Below are positions 1,968 through 41,361 of a DNA stretch of 64,000 bases, in pieces. This DNA is from Alphaproteobacteria bacterium (GTDB taxonomy: Bacteria; Pseudomonadota; Alphaproteobacteria; Rhodobacterales; Rhodobacteraceae), in NCBI GenBank assembly GCA_030425145.1, contig JAUHVK010000001.1, positions 1 through 64,000 of the forward strand, read 5' to 3'. A program made the translations under genes and the position numbers. The notes below the pieces were generated by a model. The model did not search any database. It had not been told where the DNA came from and was given only the letters and a program-made list of their open reading frames with translations. Each line of letters starts with the position of its first letter. The stretch's first letter is position 1.

Positions 1968-4057
1968 GGTGACACCGATACCGTTCCGACGAGTGCCGGC
2001 TTTGCGTCGATGCCGATCTCTTCGAATGCCATCACCGGGTTGCTGATCCCTTTGGCTGTGAGAATACTTCGCAGGAAACGGCGGCGGCGGCCGGGCGCGA
2101 CAAGCGCCGGAAACAGGCCTTTTTTGCCCACCCGTGCAAGTTCTTCAGCGATCCGCGCTGCCAGGCTTTCGAAATCCTTGGGGGACAGCGCGACATCCGG
2201 TGTTCCACGATCATTGGCGATTTCGCATTCCGAAAATCGCTTCTCCCAGTCTGAAGCGAGGTGAACCAAAGGGATCGTGCCGTCCTCGCGTCGCATGGAG
2301 GCAACAAGTTGGAAGCCGATGCGTTGGCGCACATGTTCGCAAATCGCCTCCGCGCTCTGCCCTTGGCCGCGCGTCTCCGCAATCGCCTCAAGGATCAACT
2401 GGAAGTTCCGGATCGACACCTGTTCATCAAGCAATAGCTTAAGAACCCGAAGCAGCGTATCGATCGCCACCTTGTCCGGGATGATCTGGTCGATCAGAGT
2501 GCGGTTTGCCTCCGCGCGGCTGGGGTTAGACAAAGAGCAAAGCTCGTCAAGCAGCCGTTTCAGCGACTTCATCGTCAGAAGCCGCCCGAGATTGCGCTTT
2601 ATCATTTCCAGAAGATGGGTCGCCAAGACCTCGCTCGGGGACACCACTGTCAGGCCGTTCAGTTGCGCCTCTTCCCGCGTCGAGTGTTGTATCCATCGCG
2701 CCGGAGCGCCGTAGACCGGTTCTTCGACATCCTGACCGCTGGGGAGTGCGGCTGTGTCGTCCGGGATCAAGGCCAGCATCAAGTCGGGATGCAGAACACC
2801 CCTCGCCACTTCGACACCGTGGATACGGAGAACATATGTGCCGTCCATAAGTAAGGCATCGTCGGTTAACCGGACCTCCGGCATGATCATGCCAAAGCTC
2901 TTGGCGATATGGGTCCGCATGTTCGTGATACGTGAATCCAATCCGTTGGCGGGATCGAGCACCATGTCCACAAGATCGGGCGCGAACTCTACATGGATGT
3001 CATCAAGGTCCAGAACATCGCCGATTGGTCGTTCGCGCGGCTGGGCCAATGGTTTTTCTTCCAAGGCTTCGGCTTCGTTGGCTGCATTGCTGCGATGGAC
3101 CCAGAATGCCAGCCCGCCAAGGATTGCCCCTCCCATCAGGAATGGAAGAAACGGCAATCCGGGAACCAAGGCAAACAACACCATGAGCACGGCCACAGTG
3201 GCCAGTGCTGCGGGGTGACGTCCCAACTGTGTGGTGATGGCAAGATCGGTTGCCCCTATCGCGCCGCCCCGGGCAAGAAGAAGCGCTGCCGCAATGGAAA
3301 TGATGACGGCAGGAATCTGCGTGACCAGCCCATCGCCTACAGTGAGAATTGCATAGGTTTCAAAAGCGGCCGCAATCGGCATTCCATGAACAACGGTGCC
3401 CATGATCAGGCCGACCACGACATTCAGGAGCGTGATCAGTAGGCCCGCAATCGCGTCGCCTTTGACAAATTTCGACGCGCCATCCAGCGAGCCGAAGAAT
3501 GTGGTTTCCTGCAATTCAATTTGCCGCCGCTTTCGTGCCTCTTCATGCGTGATGGCACCGGCCGCCATATCGCTGTCGATCGCCAACTGCTTGCCAGGCA
3601 TTCCGTCCAGCGCAAAGCGCGCGCCCACTTCGGCCATGCGTGCGGCACCCTTGGTGATCACCATGAAATTGACGATCAACAATACGCAAAACACCACCAA
3701 CCCAAGGAAAACGCTGCCGCCCATCACGAAGTCGGCAAAACCCTGAATGACATCCCCGGCGGCGTCCGTGCCCGTATGACCTTCGCCAATAATCAGCTTG
3801 GTGGAACTGATGTTAAGCGATAGGCGCAGCATCAACGACGCCAAAAGGATCGTCGGGAACGCCGAGAAATCCAGCGGTTTTTCAACGAATAGCGTGACGG
3901 TAAAGATCAGGATCGCCAATGCGAACGAGGCTGCCAGGCCGATGTCCAGAACAAATGCGGGAACGGGTAAGATCATCATGACAATGATCGCCATCAGCGC
4001 GACGGCTAGCCCGACAGTCGGGTTTGCAAACAGTGCTTGTACGGCGGGGCGCATCAC
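1964..4057 (-). CDS. flhA: Flagellar export gate protein FlhA
   Basis: A 697-residue protein with eight predicted membrane segments in the first 320 residues and a large cytoplasmic domain after them, the standard FlhA/FHIPEP plan. The cytoplasmic loop with TKGAARMAEVGARFALDG (about residues 135-152) followed by GKQLAIDSD is the family signature region. FlhA forms the nonameric ring that docks substrates and uses proton motive force during flagellar export. The 4-nt overlaps with fliR downstream and with the transglycosylase gene upstream point to a single transcript. Length is normal for the family and I see no frame disruption. Confidence 0.97.
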   Translation of the reverse strand: MMRPAVQALFANPTVGLAVALMAIIVMMILPVPAFVLDIGLAASFALAILIFTVTLFVEKPLDFSAFPTILLASLMLRLSLNISSTKLIIGEGHTGTDAAGDVIQGFADFVMGGSVFLGLVVFCVLLIVNFMVITKGAARMAEVGARFALDGMPGKQLAIDSDMAAGAITHEEARKRRQIELQETTFFGSLDGASKFVKGDAIAGLLITLLNVVVGLIMGTVVHGMPIAAAFETYAILTVGDGLVTQIPAVIISIAAALLLARGGAIGATDLAITTQLGRHPAALATVAVLMVLFALVPGLPFLPFLMGGAILGGLAFWVHRSNAANEAEALEEKPLAQPRERPIGDVLDLDDIHVEFAPDLVDMVLDPANGLDSRITNMRTHIAKSFGMIMPEVRLTDDALLMDGTYVLRIHGVEVARGVLHPDLMLALIPDDTAALPSGQDVEEPVYGAPARWIQHSTREEAQLNGLTVVSPSEVLATHLLEMIKRNLGRLLTMKSLKRLLDELCSLSNPSRAEANRTLIDQIIPDKVAIDTLLRVLKLLLDEQVSIRNFQLILEAIAETRGQGQSAEAICEHVRQRIGFQLVASMRREDGTIPLVHLASDWEKRFSECEIANDRGTPDVALSPKDFESLAARIAEELARVGKKGLFPALVAPGRRRRFLRSILTAKGISNPVMAFEEIGIDAKPALVGTVSVSP

Positions 4058-37415: not shown

Positions 37416-38045
37416 ATGACCCGCGCTCATATTCCTGGCATTATCGCCATGGCCTTCATCGTGTTGGCCTCCAACATCCTTGTGCAGTTCCTGTTCGGAA
37501 ACTGGCTGACATGGGGTGCCTTCACCTATCCGTTCGCTTTCCTTGTCACCGACGTGATGAACCGGCTCTACGGTCCGGGTCCGGCTCGCAAAGTGGTCTT
37601 TGCCGGCTTTGTTGTCGGCGTGATCTGTTCCTTGATCGGAACTCAGATCCAGGGTGAATTCGGCCCGCTCGTCACACTGCGGATCGCGCTGGGATCGGGC
37701 GTCGCATTCCTTACCGCCCAGCTTCTGGACGTATCCATCTTCGACAAGATGCGCGAAGGCGCTTGGTGGCGCGCACCCTTGGCGTCCACCCTGATCGGGG
37801 CTTCAGTCGATACCGCGCTTTTCTTCAGCATCGCCTTCTCCGCAACACTCAGCTTTATCGAACCGGCAAATGACGTGTCCTGGGCAGGTGAAATGCTGCC
37901 GCTCTTGGGCACAGGTCCGGTTGCACCGCTGTGGGTGTCGCTGGCCGTTGCAGACTGGATGGTAAAAATCGGACTGGCCCTGCTGGCACTGATACCATTT
38001 CGACTCATTGTTCTGCGATTTCGCGAAAAAGCCGCTCTGACATAA
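37416..38045 (+). CDS. yhhQ: Queuosine precursor transporter (YhhQ/VUT family)
   Basis: A 209-residue membrane protein with about six helices. It begins MTRAHIPGIIAMAFIVLASN and has the family region WGAFTYPFAFLVTDVMNRLYG (about residues 30-50), followed by basic ARKVVF. COG1738 members import queuine or preQ0/preQ1 for tRNA queuosine modification (family knowledge). No que gene is in the window, so import rather than synthesis cannot be judged. A possible regulatory hairpin lies in its leader. The next 60 bp downstream lead into the 16S-tail-complementary element. Confidence 0.9.
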   Translation: MTRAHIPGIIAMAFIVLASNILVQFLFGNWLTWGAFTYPFAFLVTDVMNRLYGPGPARKVVFAGFVVGVICSLIGTQIQGEFGPLVTLRIALGSGVAFLTAQLLDVSIFDKMREGAWWRAPLASTLIGASVDTALFFSIAFSATLSFIEPANDVSWAGEMLPLLGTGPVAPLWVSLAVADWMVKIGLALLALIPFRLIVLRFREKAALT

Positions 38046-38120
38046 GAAAAGAGTTGCGCGATACGGAAAGCCTGTCACGCTGAAGATGCGTTTTATTAAC
38101 AGCTGAAAGGAGGTGATCCA

Positions 38121-38177
38121 GTGTCGAGAGAGGTATTGGAGAGAGGTGTCGGAACAGTTCGAGAGGAACACATCTAG
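38121..38177 (+). CDS. 18-codon mini-ORF behind the extended Shine-Dalgarno
   Basis: GTG at 38121 stands 7 nt after GGAGG (38109-38113), an optimal distance, and the frame encodes MSREVLERGVGTVREEHI before TAG at 38175-38177. The peptide is charged and has no hydrophobic segment. The start overlaps the last base of the 16S-complementary stretch. It may be a regulatory leader peptide or a decoy ribosome loading site rather than a functional protein. Confidence 0.4.
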   Translation: MSREVLERGVGTVREEHI

Positions 38178-38246
38178 GGCAGCCCCTGGGTGATGAACCC
38201 GTCGAATTGGTGTGGAACCTAACCGGACCCGCCTCCGTAAGTCTCG

Positions 38247-38275
38247 AAGGGTCGCCCATGTGGCGACCCTTTTTG
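38247..38275 (+). terminator. Strong Rho-independent terminator ahead of arfB
   Basis: AAGGGTCGCC (38247-38256) and GGCGACCCTT (38262-38271) form a perfect 10-bp stem with loop CATGT, running directly into TTTTTG. It ends the short unit 21 bp before the arfB ATG, so arfB is either expressed by readthrough or from a promoter inside or near this hairpin. Confidence 0.9.
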
Positions 38276-38295: not shown

Positions 38296-38718
38296 ATGTT
38301 ACAGATTGCAGACACCATCACCATTGAAGGCTGGGAACTGACCGAGCAGTTCATTCGCGCGTCTGGCCCGGGTGGTCAGAACGTGAACAAGGTGTCCACC
38401 GCTGTCGAATTGCGGTTCGAGGCAGAGCGGTCTCCCAATCTTCCGGGTTCTGTCAAAAACCGTCTGCGGCGCATCGCCGGGCGGAAATGGACCAAGGATG
38501 GGGCAATTGTTCTACAGGTGGATGAGACCCGGTCTCAGGCACGAAACCGGGAGATCGCGCGGGAACGGCTGAAAGAAATGATCGTTGCGGCGCTCACTCC
38601 ACCCAAGCGCCGCGTGCCGACCAAGCCAACGCTTGGTTCAAAGAAACGCAGGCTCAAGGCCAAGAAAGTGCGGGGTGAAGTGAAATCACTTCGTGGAAAA
38701 GTCGATCCAGAGACCTGA
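38296..38718 (+). CDS. arfB: Alternative ribosome-rescue factor ArfB (peptidyl-tRNA hydrolase YaeJ)
   Basis: A 140-residue protein with the release-factor catalytic motif GGQ in RASGPGGQNVNKVSTAVELR (about residues 22-41) and a basic C-terminal tail (KKRRLKAKKVRGEVKSLRGK, about 114-133) that enters the empty mRNA channel of stalled ribosomes. It lacks the codon-recognition domain of RF1/RF2, as expected for ArfB. It frees ribosomes stuck on non-stop mRNA. The gene directly follows the terminator of an element complementary to the 16S tail, which hints at a translation-linked control (inference). Confidence 0.95.
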   Translation: MLQIADTITIEGWELTEQFIRASGPGGQNVNKVSTAVELRFEAERSPNLPGSVKNRLRRIAGRKWTKDGAIVLQVDETRSQARNREIARERLKEMIVAALTPPKRRVPTKPTLGSKKRRLKAKKVRGEVKSLRGKVDPET

Positions 38719-38763: not shown

Positions 38764-41361
38764 TCAGAACCGATCGAGCAGACGCTCCAGATATTCGAGT
38801 TCTTCCTCGGGGCGTTCACCCTCGCCAGACCGCCGCCGGATTTCATCCAGCAATTCGCGCGCGCGGCGATAGACATCTTCTCCCTGTAGCAGGTTCTCGT
38901 TCGACCCGATCTGACCGTTGGACCCGACATTCCGGCCCAGGGGGTCACGCTGCTGACCGGGATCGGCACCGTCAGCCATGCCCTGCTGGCCCTGACCCTG
39001 CTGTTGCTGCTGAGCCATCGCTTCGCCAAGGTTGCGCATCCCTTCCCGCAGCGCTTCCATCGCTTCCGACTGGTTGTCGATCGCACCCGCAAGATCATTT
39101 TCGCGCAGCGCTTCTTCGGCGCCTTCCATAGCACCCTCGGCCCGACCCAGCGCCTCACGCGCAGCATCGCCAGCTTCGGTTCCTGCACCAGGCAAGTTCT
39201 GCGACTGGCGGTTAAGCTCCTGCCGCAAGGCGCGCTGCCGGTCGGCAAGACTTTCCTCAAGGCTCTGGCCTTCACCGTTCTGCCCTTGGCCCGGCTGTTG
39301 CCCCTGACCCTGTTGCTGATCCTGACCTTGTCCTTGCTGCTGGCCTTGGCCCTGTTGCCCCGGCTGCTGGCCTTGTTGCCCTTGCTGACCAGGATTGAAT
39401 TGCTCTTGCAGATCTCGGAATGCCTGATCCGACAGACCTTGCTGTTCGCGGAGTGTTTCGGCCAGACCTTCCATCGCCTGTTCACCCGGGGACTGGCCTT
39501 GCTGACCTTGGCCCTGTGTAACCTGCATGTTCTCCATCATCTGACGAAGCTGCTCCAGCGCCTCCTGCGCTTCAGCCATGCGGCCTTGCTCCATCAATTC
39601 TTGAATGCGGTCCATCATGTCCTGCAGGTCATTCTGACTCATCTCCATCATGTTCTGGTTCTGGGTCATCTCCTGATCAGGATTGTTCTGCTGATCCTGC
39701 TGTGCCTGACGTGAAAGCTGCCGCAGATAATCGTCTGTTGCTTCGCGCAGTTCCTGCATCAACTCCGCGATTTCCTGATCGGACGCCCCGTTGCGCATCG
39801 CTTCGGACAGACGGTCCTGTGCACGCTGCAAACGCTCCAACGCGTCTTCAAGGTCGCCTTCTTCCAACCGGATCGCCAAGTCCCACATCGCTTGCGAAAT
39901 CTCGGCCTGCTGGTCGTCGGTCATTGTGACCCGAGACAGAGCCTCGACCCGGCGCATGATCGTCCGAAGGCGGAGGAAGTCGGTACTGGAGCGAAACACA
40001 TCGTCCGGCCGGTGCGAAATGGCCCGCATGAGCATCGCCACATCCGCAGCGTTTTTCCGGTTCCAGAGAAGCGACCGGCGCAGATCAATGATCGCACTGG
40101 CCATCGGATCAAAAAAGCGGCGACCGGGAAGGTCGATCACCTCTGGGACCGCCTCGCCGATCTGGTCCGCTTCGTCCGTCACAGTCAGGCTGATCGTGAC
40201 CGGGAGGTTAGCCCATGGATGTTCGGAAAAATTATCCACGAGAGTTTCGGTGAAATCCGACCGGTCGCCGGCAATCGGCATCGGCAAAGGAAGCTCGATG
40301 GTCGCGCGCGGCTCCGGGTCGATCCGCAAACCGTAGCGCCTGTCCACTTCGGTCAGCGCCAACTCAATCCGAGCAGTCCCGGTTGCGACGGCGTAATCAT
40401 CGCTGGCGGAAAAGGGGATTTGCGCTTCACCCTCGTAGCTGACTTCTATGTCGCCATCACGTGCCACTTCGGGTGCACGATCCGGGATCGCCACGATCTC
40501 CCACGCACGGCCACCCGGACCTTCGATCTCAAGCTGGCCGGAGCGTGTGACGGTGAATTCCTGTGCGGTGTTGGTGGAAGCTTGGACAAGGTCTTCCGGC
40601 GTCGCCGTCGGCGCGGCTCGGTTCGAAACCGTTTCCGTAACGCTCAATACGCCCACTTCCCCATAAAAGCGCAGAGTGATCCGGCTGCCTTCGGGGGCAT
40701 CAAGGCGGGTGCCGTCAATGTCGTTAAGGTAAATTGAAGGACGTCCCGTGTAGTGCGGTGGCTCGAGCCATCCTTCCCATGTCGGTCCAGAGGCGAGGTC
40801 CGTTCCCGTTGGGCCCATTGCCGAAACCGTCTGCACCTTGAGAACCGATCCGAACACAACCGCCACAAGGAACGCCAAAACGGCGACATAGCGCAAAGCA
40901 AAGGGATCAGCCTTGGAGACGCGCAGATCAGGTTCTGCCGCCTTGGCATCCTTGAGGCGCGCGACCATCCGAGCCTGATGCGCGTTCCAGACGGCAAGGG
41001 ATGCGGGATCGTTGGCACCAATTGCCTGGTGGTCCATTGCCGCCAGAATAGGGCTGCCGGGAAGCGTCGAATCCAAACGCGCAAGCGCGGATGCCGGCGA
41101 TGGAAAGCGAAAACGGCGCACGCCGCGCACAAGTGCCCAAATCGCCGCCAGAACGGAAACGGCCAGCACGACCCATACCGCCTCGACAGACAAGTAATCG
41201 TGCAGTCCCAACATCAGAAAGGCCAAGACCGCGAAGCCGACCGACCAAAGTGGCCAGAACGCGCGCACGATGACTTCTGCACCCATCCCCAGGCGGGTCA
41301 GGAAAAGCGGCCACTTCAATGCGGCATCAATCTCCGAGGGCAGGTTGTCCCGTGCGGTCAT
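38764..41361 (-). CDS. DUF4175 (TIGR02302-type) membrane protein with a Gln/Gly-rich region
   Basis: An 865-residue protein. Three hydrophobic segments lie near the N-terminus (about residues 30-52, 59-78 and 155-172), followed by a large, probably periplasmic part. From about residue 540 the sequence becomes rich in Gln, Met and Glu with coiled-coil character (many repeats of the type MMEMSQNDLQDMMDRIQELM), then an almost pure Gln/Gly/Pro stretch (about 657-696), then more helices. This plan is typical of the alphaproteobacterial DUF4175 family, whose function is not known. lysA lies 36 bp upstream on the same strand, but the next gene upstream in sequence is unrelated. The long low-complexity part can mislead similarity searches. 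Confidence 0.88.
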   Translation of the reverse strand: MTARDNLPSEIDAALKWPLFLTRLGMGAEVIVRAFWPLWSVGFAVLAFLMLGLHDYLSVEAVWVVLAVSVLAAIWALVRGVRRFRFPSPASALARLDSTLPGSPILAAMDHQAIGANDPASLAVWNAHQARMVARLKDAKAAEPDLRVSKADPFALRYVAVLAFLVAVVFGSVLKVQTVSAMGPTGTDLASGPTWEGWLEPPHYTGRPSIYLNDIDGTRLDAPEGSRITLRFYGEVGVLSVTETVSNRAAPTATPEDLVQASTNTAQEFTVTRSGQLEIEGPGGRAWEIVAIPDRAPEVARDGDIEVSYEGEAQIPFSASDDYAVATGTARIELALTEVDRRYGLRIDPEPRATIELPLPMPIAGDRSDFTETLVDNFSEHPWANLPVTISLTVTDEADQIGEAVPEVIDLPGRRFFDPMASAIIDLRRSLLWNRKNAADVAMLMRAISHRPDDVFRSSTDFLRLRTIMRRVEALSRVTMTDDQQAEISQAMWDLAIRLEEGDLEDALERLQRAQDRLSEAMRNGASDQEIAELMQELREATDDYLRQLSRQAQQDQQNNPDQEMTQNQNMMEMSQNDLQDMMDRIQELMEQGRMAEAQEALEQLRQMMENMQVTQGQGQQGQSPGEQAMEGLAETLREQQGLSDQAFRDLQEQFNPGQQGQQGQQPGQQGQGQQQGQGQDQQQGQGQQPGQGQNGEGQSLEESLADRQRALRQELNRQSQNLPGAGTEAGDAAREALGRAEGAMEGAEEALRENDLAGAIDNQSEAMEALREGMRNLGEAMAQQQQQGQGQQGMADGADPGQQRDPLGRNVGSNGQIGSNENLLQGEDVYRRARELLDEIRRRSGEGERPEEELEYLERLLDRF
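39274..39392 (-). repeat. Low-complexity Gln-Gly-Pro coding repeat in the DUF4175 gene
   Basis: About 120 bp of imperfect tandem units of 9-15 bp (plus-strand CTGACC, CTGTTG, CTGGCC) encode a run of GQQ, GQGQ and QPGQ residues. The pattern is a likely site of length variation by slippage. Confidence 0.8.

Follow-up and report, generated by a model that had tools for sequence, protein, structure and literature searches.

In the window, the whole 64,000-nt stretch of DNA analysed here, a short unit lies on the forward strand between two genes of the same orientation; all coordinates given below were read directly from the sequence. Upstream is Vut_1, a putative vitamin uptake transporter (37416-38045), and downstream is an arfB-like gene encoding an RF-1 domain (38296-38718), whose ATG at 38296 begins 21 nt past the terminator of the unit and which is a neighbour outside the RNA. 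A -35-like element, TTGCGC, is located at 38054-38059. Many relatives carry TTGAC 51-53 nt before the GGAGG of the unit, with 55 occurrences at -51 to -53 over 110 loci of the family, a term used here for the window-type loci of Rhodobacteraceae. No consensus sigma-70 site was found by a simple scan of the window unit. The probable 5' end of the transcript is placed in a short leader with an AACA block (38096-38104), where the model of the Rfam family CC2171 (RF01867) also starts.

The leader is followed by an extended Shine-Dalgarno (SD) sequence, GAAAGGAGGTGATCCAG (38105-38121), a 17-nt exact complement of the 16S rRNA 3' tail. The GTG start codon (38121-38123) stands 7 nt past GGAGG, its G being the final base of the 17-mer, and opens an 18-codon ORF, MSREVLERGVGTVREEHI (38121-38177), with a TAG stop at 38175-38177. 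The SD strand GGAGGTG (38109-38115) forms one side of a predicted lock helix whose 3' strand, CGCCTCC (38230-38236), is an internal anti-SD within the segment GGACCCGCCTCC (38225-38236); 97.7% of the cells of this helix (helix 1) are paired in 50 family sequences. The start-codon hairpin TCCAGTGTC/GGTATTGGA (38117-38140; helix 2) has 96.9% of its cells paired and displays one-sided variation only. The unit ends in an intrinsic terminator (38247-38275), a 10-bp stem AAGGGTCGCC/GGCGACCCTT at 38247-38271 with a T-run to 38274, where both-sided changes occur in 8 of the 12 pairs (helix 8). The coordinates, mini-ORF, internal anti-SD and terminator described for this unit in an earlier note on the window are thus all borne out by the sequence. 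We infer a stand-alone transcript of about 180 nt with its own promoter-like region and terminator.

Complementarity to the 16S rRNA tail

The tail itself, CTGGATCACCTCCTTTC, is known from relatives. Genuine 16S 3' ends bearing it were found in 2 of the 41 family genomes searched and in none of the other 39, which include the genome's own assembly. As this assembly has no detectable 16S end, the tail of the strain was taken from relatives, and on that basis the exact 17-nt match claimed from the window alone is confirmed. With the 16S 3' end pattern in just two of these genomes, rRNA operons seem to be absent from the set or masked in it. The same tail is carried by an RNA oligonucleotide in a Sinorhizobium meliloti paper on YbeY (PMC6943124).

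The 17-mer occurs once in the window and once in the genome. In shuffled windows searched with three mismatches allowed, the mean number of matches was 0.16, with one or more in 15 of 100. The 11-nt core AAGGAGGTGAT is present three times in the genome (4.9 Mb); the other two copies have an ATG just 2 nt past GGAGG, and neither has the spacing of the window unit. Among 6308 NTG codons on both strands of the window, the second-longest contiguous upstream complement of the 16S tail is 9 nt. In the family the 17-mer is exact at 65 of 110 loci, a further 18 carry a change that preserves G-U pairing (GGTGGTCC or GGAAGG), 12 differ in the first base alone, and 15 deviate more strongly, for example GGTGCTCTAG. 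The complementarity is therefore kept in most family loci but not in all.

The 5' boundary of the match was examined at 30 class loci, drawn from 70 places with a search pattern that left the first two bases of GAAAGG free. The first base, G, was kept at 30 of 30 and the second, A, at 29 of 30, the exception being a G-U pair. The next base that would extend the pairing, A, was found in three of them, and codon 2 was TCN in all 30. At a second set of 30 loci, taken from a search of 385 genomes, the first G was kept at 27 and the next base was A at four; both sets include several close relatives. The first two bases being kept while the next is seldom A, the match tends to end where the complement of ...CUUUC ends.

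The conservation search proposed with the original observation confirmed that the unit is kept in most family genomes. A nucleotide search with 206 nt matched 241 of 295 of them at E 0.001 or better, and a covariance model, R1, gave one match of at least 58 bits in 97 of 120, with a next best score of 38; the 50 family units used to construct R1 came in part from the genomes searched. The 110 family loci comprise 30 returned by the nucleotide search and 80 hand-picked from its listed rows, so that weak copies are under-represented among them. Outside the family, exact AAGGAGGTGATCCNDTG was found in 69 of 398 Pseudomonadota genomes, namely 68 of 135 alphaproteobacteria and one of 263 others (G728), by class totals counted by hand from rows, and a reversed-pattern control had none among the matches listed. 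The form AAAGGAGGTGRTCCNDTG was found in 73 of 385 alphaproteobacterial genomes spread over families, again with no reversed control among the matches listed; this exact form is thus absent from many alphaproteobacterial genomes, including reduced ones and MAGs. Among named genomes, a scan returned at least 119 stretches, and the matches listed include Sphingomonas, Novosphingobium, Mesorhizobium, Bradyrhizobium, Bosea, Methylobacterium, Azospirillum and Brevundimonas, as well as two MAGs titled Gemmatimonadetes and Nitrospinota. Phage and plasmid collections held no match to the unit, and a phage or plasmid origin was rejected on this ground.

A 16S gene end on the opposite strand would give the same 17-mer, and an rRNA fragment or a chance match was considered for this reason. 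However, the 16S sequence, in which CCGCAG would come next, stops at the edge of the 17-mer, and a match that is exact at so many family loci, present across the class and missing from the reversed controls among the matches listed is not expected by chance. Conservation refutes this explanation, to which we assign next to no probability.

The duplex of the window RNA with a free 20-nt 16S tail has a computed energy of -35.0 kcal/mol, and freeing the 17 nt in the window RNA would cost about 9.5 kcal/mol by computation (-76.2 to -66.7). On paper, invasion of the lock by the 16S tail is therefore favourable. Together with the recurrence of near-full tail complementarity across the class, these values lend support to the earlier suggestion that the transcript could capture 30S subunits. 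A decoy or sensor whose function lies wholly in binding the 16S tail, so as to withhold or count free 30S subunits, would account for the extent of the complementarity, its sharp 5' boundary and the stability of the computed duplex. A pure decoy would, however, have no need of a conserved stop codon, the site is computed to be closed in the free window-family RNA, and a single copy per genome would demand very high expression; we consider such a function unlikely.

The mini-ORF and the Shine-Dalgarno lock

The mini-ORF has exactly 18 codons in 106 of the 110 family loci, the other four having 17, 20, 24 and 24. It starts with GTG at 107 loci and with TTG at three, and the 106 ORFs of 18 codons end in TAG (48), TGA (35) or TAA (23), which interchange. 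As a control, the +1 frame has no fixed length and scattered ends. In a one-mismatch search across the class, none of the 49 places listed had C as the first base of the start codon, which was always A, G or T. Start, frame and stop are thus conserved, with interchange of the stops, as expected of a translated small mRNA. Between nearest neighbours, pN/pS was 0.54 for codons 2-13, a value confounded by RNA structure, and 0.96 for codons 14-18; the wrong frames gave 0.84 and 0.95. The peptide therefore appears weakly constrained, and the fixed start, stop and length indicate that translation is more clearly selected than its product. At wider class loci the ORFs mostly have 14-31 codons, and their peptides are clade-specific (VSHCH..., MSHGSA..., MSSDF..., VSYLKRCHLAGIAR). 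Speaking against translation, Schrader 2014 describes intergenic Caulobacter ncRNAs as untranslated, although it counts two earlier ones as translated. At two loci, L035 and L214, the same module precedes ORFs of 56-59 codons that resemble small secreted proteins (MSHG... followed by a hydrophobic stretch), which have perhaps grown from a mini-ORF.

These features would also fit a plain small mRNA in which the peptide is the function and the strong SD merely ensures high expression, since start, stop and length are fixed, peptides are similar inside clades, and codons 2-13 show the lower pN/pS. Against this, the 16S module stays while the peptides differ between clades, the final five codons drift, and structure covaries through the ORF and the 3' region. 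We regard a function of the peptide alone as rather doubtful.

The window RNA has a folding z of -4.35. Covariance analysis, also proposed at the outset, was carried out on 50 units aligned from GGAGG, which were taken from 91 non-redundant units, 60 of them listed. RNAalifold returned 42 pairs, 20 of them with compensatory changes on both sides, and the fold therefore covaries. None of 500 shuffles was as good as the consensus structure on any of five measures and the structure beats all slid versions of itself, although it was derived from the very alignment on which it was tested. Ten units were left out (L011, L028, L066, L075, L087, L088, L093, L096, L099 and L102), among them L066 with a low SD pairing of 0.49.

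In the family, the partner of the SD strand GGAGGTG is R(C/T)CTCC, some 110 nt past the start. A terminator was accepted by the script in 97 of the 110 loci, and SD pairing was at least 0.8 in 91 of these 97 units; among the first 60, it reached this value in 93% compared with 30% when the downstream part was shuffled. Variation in the lock helix is confined to the 3' side (GC/GU, UA/UG). This is expected if the 16S rRNA holds the 5' side, so the helix is not itself proved by covariation; covariation proper comes from the other helices. The start codon lies within a hairpin with TATTGGA, and the GATCCAG half may be held by this hairpin as well as by the 16S rRNA. The note had paired both halves of a GGA-N4-CCTCC segment with the extended SD. 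The pairing of GGAGGTG with CGCCTCC is supported, whereas that of GGA (38225-38227) with TCC is not; in the conserved fold, TCCA pairs with TGGA in the start-codon hairpin and CCGG (38223-38226) with TCGG of the ORF.

Clamps in other clades were compared in groups set by hand from peptides and record titles. Of 80 listed units, 53 were folded (sphingomonad 19 of 29, Bradyrhizobium 6 of 7, mesorhizobial 8 of 12, CC2171-type 20 of 32); in the remaining units no terminator was accepted. SD pairing of at least 0.8 was found in 5 of 19 sphingomonad units (control 40%), none of 8 mesorhizobial units (33%) and 1 of 20 CC2171-type units (48%). These three groups all fall below their shuffled controls, which refutes a class-wide SD lock. 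All six Bradyrhizobium units reached 0.8, with a shuffled control of 61%. In the CC2171 type, codons 3-5 (CATTGTC) instead pair with GACAATG directly before the terminator. All seven pairs of this clamp are present in 31 of the 49 distinct loci, compared with 13% in shuffles, within a search range of +70 to +230 that is broader than the pre-terminator segment, and it shows compensatory variants such as CATTGCC/GGCAATG and CACCAAA/TTTGGTG. The window family and the CC2171 type thus share a clamp that ties the initiation region to the 3' end, though in different registers, and one is predicted in sphingomonads. Across clades, the 16S module and the ORF are the only general features.

arfB and other neighbouring genes

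Vut_1 lies upstream at 105 of the 110 family loci, arfB lies downstream on the same strand at 97, and 92 have both. The distance from terminator to arfB has a median of 43 nt (87 measured) and is 60 nt or less in 59 of the 87. Elsewhere the association fades. Among 149 wider loci listed, tblastn detected arfB in 14, namely 13 of the 17 with a family-type peptide, some of which have the gene about 0.7-1.1 kb off, and one of the 132 others, the Hyphomonadaceae locus L189, where it is divergent. Linkage to arfB throughout the RNA family was thus not observed. The coupling to ArfB expression that had been suggested for the window unit is not supported in that form; the two genes are mostly adjacent in the family and in family-type loci, but with one locus among the 132 others any control of arfB is at most lineage-specific.

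Read-through of the terminator into arfB is plausible within the family, and as a leader or attenuator the unit would yield arfB mRNA by such read-through, tied to ribosome supply. The order and strand shared by most family loci, and a gap often too short for a separate promoter, would fit this arrangement. However, the RNA occurs far beyond the loci that are linked to arfB, no arfB was detected downstream in 13 of the 110 family loci, and an antiterminator pairing with the terminator stem was not seen by eye. Since the linkage is largely limited to the family and family-type loci, read-through into arfB cannot be the general function, and we find the attenuator quite improbable as an account of the RNA.

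The neighbours vary by clade and include an aminotransferase IV, an AMP-binding enzyme, DUF188, an RNB-domain nuclease, an acyl-CoA dehydrogenase and others, according to gene calls that were made crudely by GC3 and in which 2 of 10 proteins scanned had no Pfam match. Because of this turnover, both a constant neighbour and cis-regulation of a single gene were rejected. At L043, an alphaproteobacterial tmRNA (2721-3019, reverse strand), truncated where the locus ends, is found on the same strand as a CC2171-type RNA and 1.2 kb upstream of it. No tmRNA was found in nine other loci of Caulobacterales or Hyphomonadaceae type (L296-L298, L207, L198, L238, L181, L189 and L259), and the idea of a ribosome-rescue neighbourhood was dropped.

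Several smaller observations were made at these loci. In all seven Bradyrhizobium-type loci (L183, L193, L197, L201, L219, L240 and L245), a tRNA-Gly(TCC) lies near the RNA, divergent in the five with positions shown, and the 14-codon ORF ends in KRCHLAGIAR with identical nucleotides. At L045, tandem short units (TTTTTTTTACGAAGTC-like) stand directly past the terminator. In the window, the DUF4175 protein encoded at 38764-41361 on the reverse strand contains long runs of low complexity that are rich in Gln and Gly (QGQQGQ...).

Relation to CC2171 and proposed function

CC2171 is a Caulobacter small RNA whose original report we take to be Landt et al. 2008. Its consensus opens with AAcaAucGAAAGGAGGUGAUCCAGUGUCU, the same 17 nt plus UGUC, which covers the 16S complement and the start region, and it resembles the window RNA in its length and 3' hairpin; CC2171-type loci above the Rfam cut-off likewise have a short ORF, predicted at L296 to be of the VSHCLQPRSQ type. 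It differs in being filed as an sRNA gene, in its ORF, and in carrying its clamp at codons 3-5 and not at the SD. The window copy matches the model over its full length with 35.6 bits (E 2.4e-6), short of the cut-off of 75 bits; agreement is strong in the first 28 nt and again in the terminator, and the middle is mostly skipped. It has the 5' module of CC2171 (AACA, GAAAGGAGGUGAUCC, start, UC) and lacks the helix that joins codons 3-5 to the pre-terminator segment, the clamp of the window family being found at the SD instead. Other family loci matched in place in 19 of 20 cases, at 26.9-45.4 bits, with L124 unmatched. Among 20 class loci, 19 matched at E 0.01 or better and nine were above the cut-off, as were six of 15 further loci, the best being L296 with 119.8 bits. 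Sphingomonad, mesorhizobial, Bradyrhizobium and Azospirillum loci (L145, L146, L183 and L214) score below the cut-off, and it is their 5' module, mini-ORF and size that suggest kinship of these four clades with CC2171.

We treat the window RNA as a divergent relative of CC2171 and, by Rfam's own criterion, not as a member. The earlier note knew of no named RNA class that fits; CC2171 shares the 5' module, though the window copy stays below the cut-off. A literature search covering titles and abstract openings, with the original CC2171 report outside its scope, led us to recognise no description of the 16S complementarity. Evidence of expression, beyond the CC2171 name itself, comes from Mesorhizobium huakuii, where the candidate MH_s33, annotated as RF01867, is tabulated with a sequenced length of 215 nt, and RNA-seq products are given for 34 of 35 non-riboswitch candidates, all except MH_s6 (PMC5596092). 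RF01867 also appears in a table row of PMC11701678.

Sequence comparison shows an SD extended to nearly the whole 16S tail, a start and stop under selection, a covarying fold that in the window family lies over the initiation site, a terminator and, in many relatives, a TTGAC-like -35 element at a fixed distance. We favour, with a probability of about 0.5, the interpretation that the unit encodes a stand-alone translation-gated small mRNA, probably dual-function and a relative of CC2171, which is loaded by pairing along the entire 16S tail and opens when a ribosome enters. An incoming 30S subunit would invade the SD lock with its 16S tail, the mini-ORF would be translated, and the ribosome would open the RNA and expose the 3' half, CCUAACCGG...CCUCC, an anti-SD sequence. 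The freed 3' half would act on other RNAs, and the RNA would be active as a riboregulator solely upon ribosome loading. Only tentatively do we extend this to an alphaproteobacterial class of riboregulators that would be clamped until a 30S subunit loads, with translation and not the peptide releasing a regulatory 3' half. Such RNAs, if they exist, would provide a direct RNA read-out of free-ribosome supply.

The small RNA that Rfam assigns to Caulobacter seems to represent a single branch of a far more widespread alphaproteobacterial gene, in which a mini-ORF is combined with a ribosome-binding site that complements almost all of the 16S tail. Should the RNA be gated by ribosome loading, it would give simple access to the way these bacteria gauge their ribosome supply; if the peptide alone matters, the locus would be a very widespread unannotated peptide gene.

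The translation-gated mechanism is reasonable in light of the extended SD sites known in Staphylococcus aureus, the SD-poor genes of Caulobacter and the translated regulatory RNAs of S. meliloti. In S. aureus, pairing with the 16S tail is likewise lengthened towards the start codon; those sites lie in ordinary mRNAs, whereas the window RNA is a single-copy small RNA that complements nearly the whole tail (PMC13009471). In Caulobacter, the SD is missing from most genes (PMC4117421). S. meliloti has small translated RNAs with regulatory roles (PMC10117765), and its rnTrpL/peTrpL is similarly a short RNA, with a 14-codon ORF, that serves as both sRNA and message. In contrast to the window RNA, rnTrpL is leaderless, and thus has no upstream 16S complement, and it is a tryptophan attenuator (PMC10117765, PMC7298713). 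The Caulobacter sRNAs SisA-D also carry a motif with an anti-Shine-Dalgarno signature, but their shared 10-mer is described as pairing with targets, whereas CCTCC of the window RNA pairs internally (PMC12559287).
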